Virus record (IMG/VR): IMGVR_UViG_3300018080_000309
Coordinates: 1-40,420 of that record
Length of the DNA: 40,420 nt
Direction: 5' to 3' (one strand)
From: a virus
In this document: positions 1,373-23,507 of the stretch, piece by piece
How positions within the stretch are numbered: position 1 is the stretch's first letter
Layout of the letters: each line of letters starts with the position of its first letter
The notes under the pieces: generated by a model
What the model was told of the DNA's origin: nothing
Seen by the model: only the letters and a program-made list of their open reading frames with translations
Database searches by the model: none
Program-made: the position numbers and the translations under genes

Positions 1373-2413
1373 TTATTCATAAGCAGCAGTCTGTTCGTCC
1401 TGCAGCACCATATAAAGCAGAGTGTTGCTCATGCCTGTCGGGTTAGAGCTTGCCTTCATCATTTGCCCCTGGATATTCTGAGGCATCCGGTTCGGACCGC
1501 TTACTGATACATCTGAATCCACTACTTTCATCGAGGGTATACTTATGGTCAAATTCTCTGTAGCGGTATACTGGAAGTAAAGCTCAGCCTTGAATGTAGT
1601 TTCATCCTGCAGCATGTCTATATAGGTCTGTGCGTTATAATCGCCCAACTCGAAGTTAAACGTGCATACAGGGATACCGTCCTCAATCGGCTCCGCGGTT
1701 TTCCAGGCATCAGCTAAAGCCTCACGGTTGACCCACTCCTGCGAAAGCTGCCTGTCAAAGGTTAGGTTGAAAGACTTGATATTCAGGTCATCATCCCCAT
1801 CCAACGCTCCCGCGTCCGTATTCAACCGGAACCTCAAAGCACCGAAGGGAATTTTCTTTGACAAAGCTGAGTCAATTTGCATATAAGTGACAGCGTCGAA
1901 ATCGCCGGCGGCTGATGTCGCATCCGCACCCTGTAGGTGACAGTCTGCGATAGTCCTGACTGTCAAGTCAAGATACCCTTCGCCGTTCGGGCCTTCGATC
2001 GTAAACCCGACGGGCTTAACAGAGGGCCATTCATGGATTAAAGACCCGCCGACCTCTGCGGCCAGCGTCCCGAAATTGTCAGAACCGTCAATCGCATCAA
2101 TACAAGTCATGGTGTGCGTGTCTGTATCTGACACCGTATCCAGCCCTAAACACTGAGCAATAAACGACCACTGCCTGTTAGACCACCGAAGGTCCATCAT
2201 AACTTCAGGAGCAGTTGTAATACGGCATTTGTCGATGTTCTCATGCCACTGATAACCCGCCGCCGCTTCAGGGTGCATCTCAGCAGGCTCTTTTAGTGGC
2301 GATAAGTTTTTCACAATCAAGCCATCCAGAGCGCCAGGGGCAACAGCCGTTCCCCACGTGGAAGCGGACGGCTCATAAGCGGCTATTACTGATCTACCTG
2401 TTTTAGCTGCCAT
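1373..2413 (-). CDS. Major tail tube protein
   Basis: A 346-aa protein, predicted subunit of the tail tube through which DNA leaves the head. Composition is beta-rich and acidic, with 'DLRWSNRQWSFIAQCLGL' near residue 75, as in phage tail tube proteins where an early helix docks on the tube wall. The length is generous and suggests an extra domain in the middle. Start ATG 2413 has GGAGGTAAAAG upstream, inside the preceding gene. It lies between the tail completion genes and the chaperone pair, the normal siphophage order. The family assignment rests mainly on position, size and fold character. Confidence 0.78.
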   Translation of the reverse strand: MAAKTGRSVIAAYEPSASTWGTAVAPGALDGLIVKNLSPLKEPAEMHPEAAAGYQWHENIDKCRITTAPEVMMDLRWSNRQWSFIAQCLGLDTVSDTDTHTMTCIDAIDGSDNFGTLAAEVGGSLIHEWPSVKPVGFTIEGPNGEGYLDLTVRTIADCHLQGADATSAAGDFDAVTYMQIDSALSKKIPFGALRFRLNTDAGALDGDDDLNIKSFNLTFDRQLSQEWVNREALADAWKTAEPIEDGIPVCTFNFELGDYNAQTYIDMLQDETTFKAELYFQYTATENLTISIPSMKVVDSDVSVSGPNRMPQNIQGQMMKASSNPTGMSNTLLYMVLQDEQTAAYE

Positions 2414-2606
2414 CTTTTACCTCCGGCTTTTTGGTTTTCTTTTCATCATAAGGTTCAAGCCATGCCTGCTTGTGTTTGAAGTCGTAGTCATCAGGCACTT
2501 CATAAATACGACCTTTTTCAATCGCACGGGGGCCGCCGTCATGAGGGTTTATTTCATTGACAGCAGGCGGCACACCCGCATCTATTTTTGCTTTTCCGAG
2601 TTTCAT
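2403..2606 (-). CDS. Small late structural-operon protein, 67 aa
   Basis: Starts at ATG 2606 (ATGA overlap with the preceding stop) after a GAGGAGAC site; the open frame extends further upstream, but only into the neighbour's coding sequence. The protein is charged and Lys/Pro-rich towards its C-terminus (KKTKKPEVKDGS), with a central 'GRIYEVPDDYDF' that resembles small phage neck or tail-accessory proteins. No family is firmly recognised. It overlaps the tail tube start by 11 nt, so it is translated with the tail genes. Confidence 0.65.
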   Translation of the reverse strand: MKLGKAKIDAGVPPAVNEINPHDGGPRAIEKGRIYEVPDDYDFKHKQAWLEPYDEKKTKKPEVKDGS

Positions 2607-3112
2607 ACTGTCTCCTCGTGTTCGATTTCGAATACTACGCCACCATGATTGACGTATGAGTTTTCTTCTAATATCCAGGGACTTCCAAACACCAACCCTG
2701 CATAATGGCACATATCCACCGTCCCGCCTAAGTTATGAGTCGCCTTAATAGTCTGAATGACTGCCCGTTGATACCGGTAAACCGCCCGCCACTTATCTTG
2801 CGGATCGTCTGTTCCCTCTTGCCCGTATACCGAGACATAAACCACCACTCTGTAGCGTGTCCGCATTACTTCATCAGAGGCAGCCCCTGCGCCTGAATCC
2901 TCGCCCGGAGCATCCTCCGGCCAGATAACCAAAGTTACCGTCCCATCAGGCGCCACCACATGGACTTTACCGACATACACATCAGACGTGTTTACATTGG
3001 CAATGTCGAAGTCAACATAATCGGCGTTGACCAGTGCAACCTGTGCATCTAAATTAGTCGTTAGTAAAGTCTTGAATTTATCAAGCACAGGTTCTATAAA
3101 CTTAGCAGCCAT
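2603..3112 (-). CDS. Putative tail terminator / tail completion protein, 169 aa
   Basis: Lies between the virion-morphogenesis protein (3112-3648) and the tail tube, where siphophages encode the tail terminator (lambda U-like). The N-terminus is helical ('PVLDKFKTLLTTNLDAQVAL'), followed by strands such as 'TRYRVVVYVSVYGQEG', then a helix with 'YRYQRAVIQTIKA', a layout compatible with a terminator fold. An Ala/Gly/Asp-rich loop sits near residue 70. Start ATG 3112 overlaps the preceding stop as TAATG. Function is inferred from position and secondary-structure pattern. Confidence 0.6.
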   Translation of the reverse strand: MAAKFIEPVLDKFKTLLTTNLDAQVALVNADYVDFDIANVNTSDVYVGKVHVVAPDGTVTLVIWPEDAPGEDSGAGAASDEVMRTRYRVVVYVSVYGQEGTDDPQDKWRAVYRYQRAVIQTIKATHNLGGTVDMCHYAGLVFGSPWILEENSYVNHGGVVFEIEHEETV

Positions 3113-3648
3113 TATTTCCTCATCGTTGCACGGGGCAGATTAACAACCTCGAAAAGTCCCGTCTGTCTCACGCTTTGCTCTACGCCGTTTTTTAAGACTT
3201 CGGCGAACTTATTAGCCTGATCTGCAGTCAGGTCAATCGGCCTGCGTTTTTTTCTGGCCTTTGATTGGTGATAATCAGGATAATCGAAGCCATCAGCAGT
3301 GACATCTGTCCCCAACTTGATATAATACTTATTACCCGCCTTTGACAATATCCTAATAGCGCCCGTACCTTCACGGGCTAAAGACGCTTGTAATGCGCCT
3401 TCAAGCACCATTATCGGTTTGCCTGGATAGTGCTTTGACTTATAGGCTTTATAAGCCTTCGAAAGTGCGGGCCACTTGCCATGCTCACCTGAACCGCCTT
3501 CTGTCTGGAATAACTGCCGCTCAAACTTATGAAACAGTGACTTTATTACAGTGAACGAATCTTTAATAGTCTCTGGCATAGCCCCTGCAAAGTTTCGGGA
3601 TTCCCGTTCAAACTTAGGGCCATTAACTACCCTTACCGTTGCCTTCAT
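3112..3648 (-). CDS. Phage virion morphogenesis / tail completion protein (Mu G or HK97 gp10-like)
   Basis: 178 aa. It contains the signature 'WPALSKAYKAYKSKHYPGK', then 'VLEGALQASL', then 'YPDYHQ' and 'RRPIDLT', which matches the W...L...T...K...IL..TG.L..S...YA..HQ...P.R pattern of the virion-morphogenesis family that joins head and tail. ATG 3648 directly abuts the stop of the upstream gene (TAG-ATG). It probably acts in the neck with its neighbours. Confidence 0.75.
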   Translation of the reverse strand: MKATVRVVNGPKFERESRNFAGAMPETIKDSFTVIKSLFHKFERQLFQTEGGSGEHGKWPALSKAYKAYKSKHYPGKPIMVLEGALQASLAREGTGAIRILSKAGNKYYIKLGTDVTADGFDYPDYHQSKARKKRRPIDLTADQANKFAEVLKNGVEQSVRQTGLFEVVNLPRATMRK

Positions 3649-4362
3649 CTAAAAATCCGTATCAATCTCAAACCGAGGCTCTACGTCCGCATCGGTTGAG
3701 TTCTCAGACCCGTAGGACTTCATGTACGCCTTCTCAACAGCGGCGCCGGTTACAGTAGCTCCTACTAAGTAGCCCTCGATATTGGCGATAGCCCAGAGCC
3801 CGTCCATGGTTTCTTCGGACCCGTAGTATTGCGCCCATAGCTTTTCAGCGTGGTCGGACTCATTAGGAGCAACACCCATGTGAGCGGATTGTTCAGCCAT
3901 GGCGGCCGCCCCAATAGCGTTGAGCTTGCGCAAGGTATCCCACGCACGGCTTACCAGATAAAGATATACCGAACTGGCGGCGTAATTAGAATCAACCGTA
4001 TCAAGAGTTACGGTATCAGTAGACACTGACTTGACAATAGCGTATTCCTTTTGCCGTGCAGCCGCAGAAGACAAGCCCGCTATCATAACCCTGTCGCCGG
4101 TTGAAAACTGCGAGCCGTCACCCGTTGTAACAGCAACGGCCACATCATCACCGGCTGTAATTGCTAAAGCAACCTGTGAATAGTCAGTAAAGTTGTCCGT
4201 ATCATAGCCGGCATCTGATGAGACCGCTACTAATTGAGCAGCGATCTCATCCATGAACTCATTGACCTGCGTAGACGTAGGTTTAGTCGATGCACTGTAA
4301 GTTGATCGGTGCGGGTTATATTTCTGTACGTCATCAATTACACAAAATGGATAAGTAGGCAT
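3649..4362 (-). CDS. Putative head-tail connector/adaptor, 237 aa
   Basis: The N-terminal 60 residues and the C-terminal half are helical ('RAWDTLRKLNAIGAAAMAEQ', then 'AEKLWAQYYGSEETMDGL'), interrupted at about residues 70-130 by a small beta segment ('GDGSQFSTGDRVMIAGLSS'). Helical gp6/gp15-like adaptors occupy this spot after the capsid gene; the beta insert is an unusual addition resembling a short ubiquitin-activating-like or Ig-like phage domain. Start ATG 4362 has TAAGGAGTAGGG upstream. Assignment is by position and composition. Confidence 0.55.
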   Translation of the reverse strand: MPTYPFCVIDDVQKYNPHRSTYSASTKPTSTQVNEFMDEIAAQLVAVSSDAGYDTDNFTDYSQVALAITAGDDVAVAVTTGDGSQFSTGDRVMIAGLSSAAARQKEYAIVKSVSTDTVTLDTVDSNYAASSVYLYLVSRAWDTLRKLNAIGAAAMAEQSAHMGVAPNESDHAEKLWAQYYGSEETMDGLWAIANIEGYLVGATVTGAAVEKAYMKSYGSENSTDADVEPRFEIDTDF

Positions 4363-12710: not shown

Positions 12711-12824
12711 TCATTTGACCTCCCATTTATCGCCTTGACTGAGTATGGCTATAACAATTAAGAATAGCCAAAAGATAGCCCCGGTAAACGCTAAAAAGCC
12801 GTATAAAATCTGTAATAGTATCAT
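12711..12824 (-). CDS. Small single-pass membrane protein, 37 aa
   Basis: ATG 12824 overlaps the formyltransferase stop as ATGA and has GGAGGG upstream. About 28 hydrophobic residues ('ILYGFLAFTGAIFWLFLIVI' and on) are followed by a short charged tail ending GDKWEVK. It is very likely a membrane peptide. Function unknown; such peptides in early phage operons can be exclusion or host-takeover factors. Confidence 0.7.
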   Translation of the reverse strand: MILLQILYGFLAFTGAIFWLFLIVIAILSQGDKWEVK

Positions 12825-13507
12825 AGACCCTCCATTCCTGTATGCCAGCTAATAACACCAAGTTGTTTTAGTTTATACCGATCCATCATTACCACTTCCT
12901 CGGCGTGCTTCATTCTGCGGTGCGGTTTATATTGTGCGGTCAATTCCTGCCGGCTGGCCAGATGCCTGCCTGCTTCGATCGAATCAATCAATAGCTTGAT
13001 CTCAAGCTCATACACTCGCATAGCCAGGTGGTAAAAATCCTCAAGCAGCTTCGGCTCGATAATCTGCCTTGATATCACGTGGCCTGTATCCGCTTCCTCA
13101 CCTACCTGATGCACCGTTACGCCTATGAGTTGATCCTCATAGATTGACCACTTCAGCGCATCCAATCCCCTGACTTCCGGCAATAGCCCTGGGTGTGCAT
13201 TGATAAACGGGCAGAGACTAATAACTTCCTTCGGCAAGATGCCTGCCCCGCCGATCAAAACTCGATCCAGCTCTTCATACTTGAATTGATTAACGTGGGC
13301 CAGGTGGGTAATCGGCAGCCCTAAGTTCTTAGCCATGACTGATGGATCAATCCCACCCGTTGGTCTGTGTGGATACAGGGGGATATGGTTCTTGCGCTCT
13401 TCCCATAGGGTAGTAATTATATGAGGCTTAATACCTCTTGCTACTAACCCCAATACTAAGTCGGTTGTTTTTCTGTGCGGCTTTCCGTAAGTGAGTACGC
13501 CTATCAT
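12821..13507 (-). CDS. Formyltransferase-family enzyme
   Basis: 228 aa of the GART/methionyl-tRNA formyltransferase fold. The catalytic Asn-His-Asp triad is present: Asn103 and His105 in 'FINAHPGLLP', Asp140 in 'EADTGHVI'. The folate-binding and core region 'RGLDALKWSIYEDQLIGVTV' is also typical. It lacks the C-terminal OB domain that methionyl-tRNA formyltransferase uses to hold tRNA, so the substrate may be a nucleotide, amino sugar or small amine instead. The N-terminus ('IGVLTYGKPHRKTTDLVLGL') departs from host versions. It overlaps the methyltransferase stop as ATGA and is therefore co-translated. Formyl transfer from 10-formyltetrahydrofolate is the family reaction; the acceptor is unknown. 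Confidence 0.8.
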   Translation of the reverse strand: MIGVLTYGKPHRKTTDLVLGLVARGIKPHIITTLWEERKNHIPLYPHRPTGGIDPSVMAKNLGLPITHLAHVNQFKYEELDRVLIGGAGILPKEVISLCPFINAHPGLLPEVRGLDALKWSIYEDQLIGVTVHQVGEEADTGHVISRQIIEPKLLEDFYHLAMRVYELEIKLLIDSIEAGRHLASRQELTAQYKPHRRMKHAEEVVMMDRYKLKQLGVISWHTGMEGL

Positions 13508-14070
13508 GTTTTCCTCCTCTGGACTCGTAACATAAACCGATAATTTAACCCCCTTACAAGCTGGCAGTTCTTAACATATACCTGATCGTAACAGTTGAAT
13601 ACCTTTTCATAGTTTCTCGGAAAATGTCGGGGAGATTTGTACAATTCATCTTCAAGGGTTATAACATACTCCGGTTTGATCCAATTCTCTATCGCCCAAA
13701 ATACGCCCTCAGACTCTGGGTGCAGATGCTCAAAAAAAGCGCAGGTAAACACGACATCAGCCTTAACATGAAACACCGCCAACTCCACCGTAGTGTTTAA
13801 TATATTTGGATAGACCCTGTGTTGATAAGCGGCTTTGTTGATCTCTACACCCATCAAGTTGTTATACCCCCGCTGGCTCAAATACTCCAAGTTGCGCCCG
13901 ATATTACACCCCAGCTCAACGATAGAATAATCCTTTGGTATAAATTCATTGAATACATCAGCAATCATATAAGTCCGCCCCGACGTATTTTTGTTGAATT
14001 TATAATTTGACCAATGATTAGTCTCTGACGGACTCACCCAATAATCCCATATCTGCCTGCAAGTTTTCAT
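13504..14070 (-). CDS. Class I SAM-dependent methyltransferase
   Basis: 188 aa. The SAM-binding motif I is 'VELGCNIGRNLEYL' at residues 51-64, with the acidic ribose-binding residue in 'GVEIN' (74-78). Motif IV-like 'VVFTCAFFEHLHPE' lies near 105-118. The pattern matches the small-molecule/RNA/sugar methyltransferases rather than DNA methylases, since there is no (D/N/S)PP(Y/F). ATGA overlaps on both sides couple it to the 113-aa gene and the formyltransferase. Substrate unknown. Confidence 0.82.
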   Translation of the reverse strand: MKTCRQIWDYWVSPSETNHWSNYKFNKNTSGRTYMIADVFNEFIPKDYSIVELGCNIGRNLEYLSQRGYNNLMGVEINKAAYQHRVYPNILNTTVELAVFHVKADVVFTCAFFEHLHPESEGVFWAIENWIKPEYVITLEDELYKSPRHFPRNYEKVFNCYDQVYVKNCQLVRGLNYRFMLRVQRRKT

Positions 14071-14408
14071 GTTTTCACCTTCCCTTCAAGATGCCGGAAT
14101 ATAGACTGCCATCCGTTCAAGATTGCCTCGAACGCCTCAAGTCCCTTGATAGCGTTCCGATAATAGCTTTCGGCCTTGTCCGCTTCTAACTTCTGCTTCC
14201 AGCAGTCACCTCTTGCCAACCTGTCTATCACGCTGACATACTCGCCTTCAGTTTTCAAACGCAGAACGGCGATAGACAGGGCCTTTTCATACTCGGCAAT
14301 AGTGGTGGCCTTCTTGTCTGCGTATTCCTTGATGGTGTCAAGGGTCTTTTCTATCTTGCCGATAGTTAGCTGTATCTCGGCTGCTACGCTTTCCACGCTG
14401 TTTTTCAT
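14067..14408 (-). CDS. Coiled-coil protein, 113 aa
   Basis: ATG 14408 has AAGGAGTGAGAG upstream, starting only about 6 nt after the end of the tRNA-like element. The N-terminal 60 residues form a heptad-rich helix ('TIGKIEKTLDTIKEYADKKA'); the rest is also helical. No catalytic motif and no recognised family. Position between an RNA ligase/tRNA-like RNA and a methyltransferase hints at an RNA-related accessory role, but that is inference. Confidence 0.65.
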   Translation of the reverse strand: MKNSVESVAAEIQLTIGKIEKTLDTIKEYADKKATTIAEYEKALSIAVLRLKTEGEYVSVIDRLARGDCWKQKLEADKAESYYRNAIKGLEAFEAILNGWQSIFRHLEGKVKT

Positions 14409-14425
14409 CTCTCACTCCTTATTAG

Positions 14426-14495
14426 TGGAGGCGGCCGGAATCGCACCGGCGTGGGAAGTCGCAATTTGCGACCACCTCGAAACTATTTCGCCCCC
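14426..14495 (-). ncRNA. Miniature tmRNA-like (tRNA-like domain) RNA
   Basis: A 70-nt element in the gap between the RNA ligase stop and the next ribosome site. The 5' end GGGGGCG (14489-14495) pairs with 3' CGCCTCC (14427-14433) to give a 7-bp acceptor stem with G3.U70 and discriminator A (14426). The T arm is GCCGG-TGCGATT-CCGGC. After the acceptor stem comes AAATAGTTTCGAGG, matching the stemless D-loop of tmRNA (consensus ...GGUUUCGAC...). In place of the mRNA-like domain there is one hairpin, GTCGC-AAATT-GCGAC, with flanking GTG/CAC pairs. No canonical D stem and no proper 7-nt anticodon loop with U33, so it is not an ordinary tRNA. CCA is not encoded. G3.U70 is the alanyl-tRNA synthetase identity element. 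Confidence 0.72.
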
Positions 14496-14496
14496 G

Positions 14497-15522
14497 TTAA
14501 ATTTCAGCCTTAAATACTGCGTCCGCTTTCGGCTTAATTTGCTTCCATATTAAATCAGCATAATCTTTGCCGTCCAACATCTTAAACAGTATTGATGGGA
14601 ATGAGCATTTCTGATAATACAGGGCGTTTGTCTTTCTATTCCCGTAGTCCTTAAAGTCTTGCTTACACTCGCAATCAACCACATCGTAATCATGCCGAAG
14701 TCCGGCTTCAATGTCCCGTACCCATGTGTAAAACTCATCCGGTACATTCTCGATCAGTTGTTTCACATCCCCATGCTCCCGTAAATGCTCCCATATATGG
14801 CGGGGATTCATGTGGGTTATTAATCTGTGAAGCCGTTTGTATTCCTCATATTTCAACTTTATCCGCAACCCACTTTGGAACCTCACAACAAAACCTTCTC
14901 TGTTGGCTCCGTCCAAATCGCGCAGCTTTGTAATATCTTTTATCCCATCATACCTTTTTGCCATCGGGAACGGTATGGTGTGTGGGTTAACAACATCCAC
15001 ATCATTGCCTGTTTCTGGGTCAATGACTGCAAGTAAATGCAATAGTCGCTCGTTTCCGTAGTCTATCACAATTCTATTCTGTGGGTAAATAATCTCGAAT
15101 AGATATGTATATTTCCTCAATAAAAACCAATCTGCTTCTCTTTCTCTGAACATCTTTGTTCCCTCAATGGCCTGTTCGCTTGTAAAGCTCCCTCTGGTTG
15201 CTATGAATGGTTCGCCGTCCAACCAATACAATATTCCAAGTGATCCATCCAGCTTTTCGTACACTTCAAAAGGTTCGTTTGGTATCTGCCAATGCTCTTC
15301 TCTTTGCAGTTCTTCAAGGTTAAAGAATTTCGGGAACGGACGAGCTATTATATTCCAATCTCCATCAACGATAAGCCCTCGGCACATCAAGGTTGCTTCA
15401 TTCCAATTCCACTCAAACTGCGTTTTTTGCGTATAGTTTAGAATGAACAAATCAGCGTCAGGGTGCTTCTGCATAGATACATACTTCTCAGCTATCATCT
15501 GTTTTATTAGGTCAACATTCAT
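14497..15522 (-). CDS. RNA ligase (T4 Rnl1-like)
   Basis: 341 aa. ATP-dependent RNA ligase joining 5'-phosphate and 3'-hydroxyl ends through a lysyl-AMP intermediate. Motif I is 'EKLDG' with Lys90; motif III-like 'YLFEIIYPQNRIVIDY' near 140-155; motif IV 'EGFVVRF' at 209-215; motif V 'IKLKYEEY' at 221-228. The N-terminal 'EATLMCRGLIVDGDWNIIAR' is the typical segment before the active site in the Rnl1 family, which repairs cleaved tRNA anticodon loops in T4. The gene ends one base before the tRNA-like RNA and overlaps the phosphoesterase as ATGA. Confidence 0.9.
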   Translation of the reverse strand: MNVDLIKQMIAEKYVSMQKHPDADLFILNYTQKTQFEWNWNEATLMCRGLIVDGDWNIIARPFPKFFNLEELQREEHWQIPNEPFEVYEKLDGSLGILYWLDGEPFIATRGSFTSEQAIEGTKMFREREADWFLLRKYTYLFEIIYPQNRIVIDYGNERLLHLLAVIDPETGNDVDVVNPHTIPFPMAKRYDGIKDITKLRDLDGANREGFVVRFQSGLRIKLKYEEYKRLHRLITHMNPRHIWEHLREHGDVKQLIENVPDEFYTWVRDIEAGLRHDYDVVDCECKQDFKDYGNRKTNALYYQKCSFPSILFKMLDGKDYADLIWKQIKPKADAVFKAEI

Positions 15523-22609: not shown

Positions 22610-23386
22610 TTAGTCAAATATTCTAACTTGTGATTTGTCCTCTTTTTTGACTCGGCTTACCAACCACCAATCAAACATAGCCTTACCACTCTCCCACCGG
22701 TCAACCGATTTTAACCCCTTTGCTTTTCTATCTTCCCATAATAATTGGAACGCTCTCTCAAAACATTTAGCGAACTTCGGGTATCGTATAGCGTGTAATT
22801 GCTTCTCTTTATTTGTCGCATTTGGGCAAAATAAACAGCCAATCCGTTGCCAATTTTCATCGTAGAGCCTACAATAAGGCAAGTTCTGTTTTCTAATAAA
22901 TTCCCATACATCAGTGTCAGCCCAATCTATAATTGGGTGTAAAAACTTTCTCGTCACATCATTATAACACGCCTCTAACATTTTGCGGTTCGCTCGTTTC
23001 GCTGACTCAGCCCAACGTACACCCGTCACTACCAACCGTCCCGACCCTCCACCCTCTTTGTATTCTTTACAGCACCAGCGCCTCTGCCTTTGGGGGAAAC
23101 CCCGCTTGACCATCATTTTCAAAAACGGCATTTTTGGCTTATCCCAAATCACATCTTTATGGTGTTCACGCATAAAGTAGATAAGCTCTGGCGGGTCTAT
23201 CGTGGTTACTGAATAGTGGGCATCATACTTTACCCCTGCCATGTCTGCTAACTTCTTAATCACTATCGAGTCCTTACCACCGGAGAACGCAAGGTAGTAA
23301 CCTTCAGGCGGTTCAAACATCTGCAACCGTTTGATAGCAATAGCAACCTTGTCAACCTCGCCGAATAATGTATTTTCAACTAACAT
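22610..23386 (-). CDS. PAPS reductase / ATP pyrophosphatase family protein
   Basis: 258 aa from ATG 23386 with AGAGGTGG upstream. The PP-loop 'AFSGGKDS' (33-40) activates a substrate by adenylation. Other family marks: 'RQRRWCCKEYK' with Cys105-Cys106, 'HPIIDWADTDVWEFIRKQNL' and 'IGCLFCPNA' with Cys184/Cys187, probably a metal or Fe-S site. Phage members are frequent; proposed roles include sulfur modification of nucleic acids or cysteine/sulfate metabolism. No dnd-type partners are seen here. Confidence 0.85.
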   Translation of the reverse strand: MLVENTLFGEVDKVAIAIKRLQMFEPPEGYYLAFSGGKDSIVIKKLADMAGVKYDAHYSVTTIDPPELIYFMREHHKDVIWDKPKMPFLKMMVKRGFPQRQRRWCCKEYKEGGGSGRLVVTGVRWAESAKRANRKMLEACYNDVTRKFLHPIIDWADTDVWEFIRKQNLPYCRLYDENWQRIGCLFCPNATNKEKQLHAIRYPKFAKCFERAFQLLWEDRKAKGLKSVDRWESGKAMFDWWLVSRVKKEDKSQVRIFD

Positions 23387-23387
23387 T

Positions 23388-23507
23388 CTAAAACCACCTC
23401 TTATCACCACATTTTGTACAAACATATTCTATCAATAATTCCATATACACATCAACCCCTACCCGTGTCTGTCTACCAGTTGCCTCCCACTTATGTTTGC
23501 ATTTCAT
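23388..23507 (-). CDS. Small CxC/CxxC zinc protein, 39 aa
   Basis: ATG 23507 with GGAGGGTTAAC upstream; the TAG ends one base before the next ATG. 'MKCKHKWEATGRQ' and 'YVCTKCGDKRWF' form a C-x-C-x-H/C-x2-C type metal site. Too short for most gene finders. Likely a zinc-ribbon peptide. Confidence 0.68.
   Translation of the reverse strand: MKCKHKWEATGRQTRVGVDVYMELLIEYVCTKCGDKRWF

Follow-up and report, generated by a model that had tools for sequence, protein, structure and literature searches.

The window, a 40,420-nt stretch of viral DNA analysed here over its whole length, is a tailed-phage contig that encodes a Mu-like portal, a terminase, a Mu-like protease, a tape measure protein and a DnaB-like helicase. 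The terminase has distant relatives only, at no more than ~25% identity among the matches listed from the phage collection. On the minus strand, the genes for a T4 Rnl1-type RNA ligase and a 113-aa protein are separated by a gap filled by a 70-nt RNA gene (70 nt before CCA completion), which is read from 14495 to 14426, begins 1 nt past the RNA-ligase stop codon and gives way at once to the AAGGAG and ATG of the next gene. An earlier interpretation made from the letters of the window (the sequence-only reading) had placed 70 nt between the RNA-ligase stop and the next ribosome site without giving a strand; the fit is exact, on the minus strand. We note that formyltransferase, methyltransferase and PAPS reductase-like genes lie at 12821-14070 and 22610-23425 of the window; the former two closely follow the RNA on its downstream side.

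A tmRNA reduced to its tRNA-like domain

From 5′ to 3′ the window RNA reads GGGGGCG AAATAGTTTCGA GGTGGTCGCA AAT TGCGACTTCC CAC GCCGG TGCGATT CCGGC CGCCTCC A. Its acceptor stem of 7 bp is fully paired (7/7) with G3.U70 and A73 present, and the T stem is paired at 5/5 positions around a 7-nt loop, TGCGATT, whose G at position 55 had been pointed out before. The predicted fold has an energy of -33.8 kcal/mol (z = -2.45), a stability equalled in 4 of 200 shuffles. A hairpin in the middle of the RNA had been anticipated and is present; the earlier drawing of it as GTCGC-AAATT-GCGAC gives way to a better one with two base pairs and a seven-pair stem closed by an AAU loop. This P2 hairpin of ~23 nt contains no tag ORF with resume or stop codons, and neither sequence nor fold reveals pseudoknots PK1-PK4, for which there is no sequence to form them. 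Across both strands of the 40-kb window, a fully paired acceptor with G3.U70, A73 and a 5/5 T stem occurs at two loci, of which only 14426-14495 has the TTCGA loop.

Table 1. Positions of the RNA gene, its parts and its neighbours in the window, and of two copies in cultured phages
Feature	Position	Strand	Evidence or remark
Upstream gene, T4 Rnl1-type RNA ligase	14497..15522	(-)	PF09511, E 4e-19
TLD-only tmRNA gene	14426..14495	(-)	Rfam RF00023 match, 304 model positions skipped
Acceptor stem 5′ strand GGGGGCG, G3 at 14493	14489..14495	(-)	sequence; 7/7 pairs
Stemless D loop AAATAGTTTCGA, tmRNA-type	14477..14488	(-)	alignment to tmRNA consensus
P2 helix 5′ strand GGTGGTCGCA	14467..14476	(-)	fold
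P2 apical loop AAT, in place of the whole mRNA domain	14464..14466	(-)	fold
P2 helix 3′ strand TGCGACTTCC	14454..14463	(-)	fold
T arm GCCGG-TGCGATT-CCGGC, G at position 55	14434..14450	(-)	sequence
Acceptor stem 3′ strand CGCCTCC, U70 at 14429	14427..14433	(-)	sequence
Discriminator A73; CCA not encoded (next bases CTA)	14426..14426	(-)	sequence
Downstream gene, 113 aa, phrog_1389, function not known	14067..14408	(-)	Shine-Dalgarno AAGGAG at 14415-14420
Mini-tmRNA, Streptomyces phage Tomas (L205)	2001-2078		
Mini-tmRNA, Streptomyces phage Riptide (L209)	1501-1577		

The Rfam tmRNA model RF00023 matches the window RNA with 34.2 bits (E = 9.6e-13, 141 nt searched) and in a second run with 42.8 bits, both below the Rfam gathering score of 47 bits; it is the best match in its clan, to which tRNA also belongs. 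The alignment spans model positions 1-374 with both ends matched and 304 positions skipped, and it places the stemless D loop, the TTCGA motif and the T arm. We therefore find, as the sequence-only reading held, the two ends of tmRNA back to back, in standard order and joined without a CDS. The comparison of tmRNA and tRNA models proposed with that reading comes out for tmRNA on the window RNA, in which ARAGORN detects 0 genes. A tRNA-Ala was considered and rejected, since the fold has no D stem and no 7-nt anticodon loop and ARAGORN reports none; a permuted tmRNA (RF04321) was rejected because the ends are in standard order, not 3′ piece first. The mitochondrial model RF02544 is unlisted for the window RNA in an output that suppresses lower-scoring clan members. 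In sum, the window RNA is the tRNA-like domain (TLD) of tmRNA without tag ORF or pseudoknots.

One phage, some mitochondria and two plastid sequences had already supplied examples of this TLD-only kind. The supposition that no tag-less phage tmRNA had been described does not hold: PMC4131195 and PMC11915505 record a TLD-only tmRNA in mycobacteriophage DS6A (tmID 11587; Mao et al. 2009). Like the window RNA, it is a phage gene for barely more than a tRNA-like domain without tag CDS; unlike the mini-tmRNAs described below, it is reported for one phage, and the likeness drawn here is to its published description. The tmRNA database, with 97,179 sequences, holds nine labelled "standard, no CDS" (PMC11915505), and the open-access literature, outside which most subscription journals fall, yielded no further phage tag-less tmRNAs. 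Standard bacterial and phage tmRNA (RF00023) shares with the window RNA the G3.U70 and A73 acceptor, stemless D loop, T arm, base of P2 and 5′-to-3′ order, but has ~300-400 nt against 70 nt without tag ORF and pseudoknots. Jakobid and oomycete mitochondrial tmRNA (RF02544), for which tag-less rescue has been proposed, likewise lacks the tag frame but is usually permuted, organellar and retained with imported SmpB (PMC4131195, PMC11915505). The CDS-less tmRNA of Mallomonadaceae plastids (~65 bp; PMC11915505) has the size of the window RNA and no CDS, but belongs to a plastid lineage without phage context. Permuted two-piece tmRNA (RF04321) has the same end sequences in the opposite order, and an mRNA domain.

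Mini-tmRNAs in unrelated phages

Relatives, here called mini-tmRNAs, were collected with sequence patterns. Pattern 1, which asks for both tmRNA ends at a spacing of 25-55 nt, is present in 41 viral contigs against ~0.003 or fewer expected by chance. Pattern 2, consisting only of GGTTTCG, the T loop and a terminal CCA, with acceptor positions 1-7 and 66-70 unconstrained, matched at least 120 viral contigs, and pattern 3, built on the apical hairpin and T arm with D loop and 5′ acceptor strand unfixed, matched 53 contigs. A covariance model trained on pattern matches (R1) verifies as mini-tmRNAs ~97 of the pattern-2 contigs among the matches listed; its score of 68.2 bits for the window RNA is high by construction because the training set includes it. 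Another 22 pattern-2 matches that failed R1 were inspected and set aside as tRNAs or unrelated sequences.

Patterns 1 and 2, pooled with a single scan of bacterial genome contigs that brought up mainly MAG contigs and also Cellulosimicrobium, give at least 100 non-redundant RNAs; their lengths run from 62 to 94 nt, with a median of 78. Sorting 127 loci by the proteins encoded within 5 kb yields 34 groups without a common protein. The RF00023 cut-off is passed by 30 of 37 relative records, those of Streptomyces phages Tomas and Riptide through a full-length tmRNA, and mini relatives reach up to 77 bits. The RNA nearest to that of the window by its T arm, L037, has an identical T arm with the unusual TGCGATT loop and differs by a compensated acceptor change from C-G to U-A at 6-67; its P2 is wholly different in sequence, yet forms a hairpin too.

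Base pairs were counted from fixed offsets, and a MAFFT alignment (A5) was kept out of the statistics, as the variable length of the D loop makes it misplace the 5′ acceptor strand. Across 100 non-redundant RNAs, acceptor pairs 4-69, 5-68 and 6-67 are paired in 99-100% of cases versus 54, 44 and 66% after shuffling, and each shows four to five of the standard pair types. In the T stem, 49-65 and 50-64 are paired in 99% versus ~40% (41% for 49-65), and the first five P2 pairs in 87-95% (89% overall) versus 34-51% when slid by 1-2 positions. An independent counter found 365 double-sided changes versus 113 shuffled, and a covariation score of 0.80 versus 0.15. Relatedness inflates double-change counts; the slid control retains relatedness, and the signal collapses when the partner strand is slid. 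Acceptor, T and P2 stems thus all covary strongly across the mini-tmRNAs, which bears out the covariation check suggested with the sequence-only reading.

In the main ~78-nt class (L066, L104, L128, L204 and others) the apical motif AAAGCCGCANGCGGA is near-invariant while the P2 stem below it varies, so that AAAGCCGCANGCGGA is possibly a binding site or a 3D motif. Separately, two contigs of Microvirga lenta (L179, L181) carry an 88-nt tmRNA-like RNA with equal model scores and acceptor mismatches. Synechococcus and other cyanobacterial contigs (L180, L185, L191, L192) match a pattern through a conserved GGTTTCGAC...GGTTCGATTCCGCTCAGCTCCA, without a mini-tmRNA fold.

At least nine cultured phages have a mini-tmRNA. 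Among Streptomyces phages, BLAST reveals full copies in LuckySocke, GiJojo, pSt2308, BRock, Naboo, Tomas and Riptide, while a partial match in Alone3 was brought to full length by R1; Stenotrophomonas phage Jojan60 has a copy as well. RF00023 scores above the gathering score were obtained for BRock (64.5 bits), Jojan60 (61.8), pSt2308 (61.0) and LuckySocke (57.1); the cultured-phage records checked carry no tmRNA annotation of the mini copies. Tomas and Riptide encode, besides the mini-tmRNA, a full tag-encoding tmRNA (L249 and L250) with the tags DNSNVAFALAA and ANSKFAFALAA. Not all mini copies are pristine, since those of Tomas and Riptide score low with the tmRNA model and have D loops that have diverged, and that of Alone3 (L210, 1487-1563), with mispaired T-stem bases and an altered D loop, is possibly decaying.

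The gene contexts are equally diverse. In ~20 marine contigs the mini-tmRNA comes after terminase and portal and separates the prohead protease gene from that for the major capsid protein; elsewhere it stands beside replication genes or in tRNA arrays, as do the Streptomyces phage copies examined. In one contig (L113), HAD phosphatase, ferritin-like and prohead protease (S78) domains are joined in a single 685-aa ORF at 1916-3970, upstream of mini-tmRNA and capsid gene. A functional tie to the RNA ligase was pursued and dropped: 3 of 13 contigs gathered by RNA-ligase homology have a mini-tmRNA, and in a controlled comparison a ligase is present in 3 of 44 mini-tmRNA records versus 1 of 22 controls. 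Given this lack of enrichment, the ligase beside the window RNA is incidental.

Retention of the alanine identity pair

G3.U70 is the classical identity element for alanyl-tRNA synthetase (AlaRS). Because pattern 1 fixed GGGG and the genome-contig pattern fixed U70, the argument for this pair rests on patterns 2 and 3. In the pattern-2 alignment of the matches listed, where neither base was fixed, 57 of the 58 distinct RNAs have G.U at 3-70; R1 contains the 3-70 pair, and the pattern-2 matches that it rejected are visibly tRNAs. The sole exception (L176) belongs to a permuted full tmRNA of a cultured phage. All 39 pattern-3 RNAs with a paired acceptor have G.U as well, and the three found only through RNA-ligase homology (L051, L053, L055) have other acceptor sequences and still G3.U70 and A73. 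Both elements, whose presence in the window RNA had been remarked from its sequence, are thus kept essentially without exception, while adjacent acceptor pairs vary freely.

The 3′ end matters too, since CCA is encoded in 38 of 114 RNAs versus ~2 expected by chance; at least 99 of the 114 have a C at position 74. Retention of G3.U70 and the encoded CCA argue for a trans-acting, presumably charged RNA rather than an mRNA element, and the strictness of G3.U70 and A73 suggests selection for charging, beyond SmpB binding. The proposal that the window RNA is a TLD that should be alanylatable is thus strongly supported by covariation, the tmRNA model and retention of the identity pair. Some 100 distinct RNAs with a near-perfect alanine identity pair point to a phage RNA that is under selection, has been put to use repeatedly and escapes gene finders. 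The breadth of the family and the conservation of this pair appear to be unreported before; new are the breadth, the apparent selection for alanylation, the conserved apical hairpin of the main class and the two Streptomyces phages with both tmRNA types.

Possible roles in ribosome rescue

Trans-translation is near-universal in bacteria, and to our knowledge little has been established about how phages cope with it. Before tmRNA serves as a message it is processed, alanylated and bound by EF-Tu and SmpB. Mini-tmRNAs keep the parts for these steps and lose those for message switching and tagging, and the simplest outcome would be competition with host tmRNA. We accordingly lean, with modest confidence, towards the window RNA being an alanylated, SmpB-binding competitor of host trans-translation. 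The phage operon transcript would include the reduced tmRNA, tRNA-processing enzymes would excise it and CCA would be added. Host AlaRS would then charge it with alanine through G3.U70 and A73, and host SmpB and EF-Tu would bind the charged RNA. No SmpB gene was detected in the 54 records tested, many of them fragments, so any SmpB used would be the host's. The charged complex would vie with host tmRNA for SmpB and stalled ribosomes; because the mini-tmRNA brings no tag message, proteolytic tagging and the normal completion of trans-translation would be blocked during infection.

According to PMC4131195 and PMC11915505, which both cite Mao et al. 2009, a TLD-only RNA like that of DS6A acts in E. 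coli as an inhibitor of the cell's own tmRNA, perhaps because it titrates SmpB, and PMC4131195 has it do so whether chargeable or not. An SmpB sink needs no G3.U70, and as the published inhibition is irrespective of charging, the strictness of the pair hints at a step beyond titration and favours an alanylated competitor at stalled ribosomes over a passive SmpB sponge. Against the competitor, the window RNA has no encoded CCA and a G55 in its T loop, and the coexistence of full and mini-tmRNA in two Streptomyces phages is odd for a simple anti-tagging device.

This coexistence sits better with the main rival, which we consider possible though somewhat unlikely: that alanyl-mini-tmRNA and SmpB enter the stalled ribosome, the nascent chain moves to the alanine and the ribosome is cleared with another release activity, so that the phage retains usable ribosomes without tagging. 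Conserved G3.U70 and A73, which imply that charging and not SmpB binding alone is selected, would fit such a role, and mitochondrial tag-less tmRNAs persist with imported SmpB (PMC4131195, PMC11915505). However, an RNA with neither resume nor stop codon has no known means of completing the reaction, the neighbourhood of the window RNA shows no phage release factor, and the test of a similar RNA described in PMC4131195 and PMC11915505 gave inhibition. The mechanistic question is thereby sharpened to what an alanylated TLD-SmpB does on a stalled ribosome without a message to switch to.

An SmpB-independent charged mimic or decoy of tRNA-Ala/EF-Tu, acting for example as a sink for AlaRS or EF-Tu or as bait for tRNA-cutting defence nucleases, is improbable: it would account for the alanine identity, for the several copies within phage tRNA arrays and for the ligase adjoining the window copy, but the tmRNA-specific D loop (GG-N-TCGAC-like) recurs although pattern 3 left it free, the ligase is not enriched and an anticodon loop is absent. 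Less probable still is a cis-acting element, in which the tRNA-like fold would do no more than direct processing or regulate the mRNA downstream of it; the tight intergenic fit in the window and the protease/capsid gap of ~20 contigs speak for it, but the contexts (capsid cassettes, tRNA arrays, early genes) are unrelated, and processing needs no G3.U70, A73 or CCA. Since ssrA is a frequent phage integration site and a few members such as Alone3 look decayed, a degenerate relic of a captured ssrA, one option of the sequence-only reading, or an att-site remnant might be considered, but it is scarcely credible, as an att site would not copy the 5′ end and compensatory changes in all three stems across unrelated phages make a relic untenable for the class.

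These data suggest that phages use mini-tmRNAs to interfere with, or to bypass, the host's rescue of stalled ribosomes. Beyond the competitor proposed for the window, it seems to us rather probable that this large, almost wholly unannotated family of alanylatable tag-less tmRNAs, found in many unrelated tailed phages and sometimes beside a full tmRNA, is a general tool for reprogramming host ribosome rescue, and that the near-invariant apical AAAGCCGCANGCGGA hairpin of the main class points to an additional partner. The function is directly testable because cultured Streptomyces and Stenotrophomonas phages carry mini-tmRNAs.

The searches also brought up two cultured phages with permuted or beta-type tmRNAs that lack annotation, Alcaligenes phage QDWS595 (L176, 1435-1782) and Stenotrophomonas phage DLP_6 (L178, 1429-1702). 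In Tunturiibacter phage Tunturi_4 (L177, 1118-1879), a gene with an RF-1 domain (ArfB-like) is followed directly by a permuted tmRNA, and the two are possibly a phage ribosome-rescue cassette.
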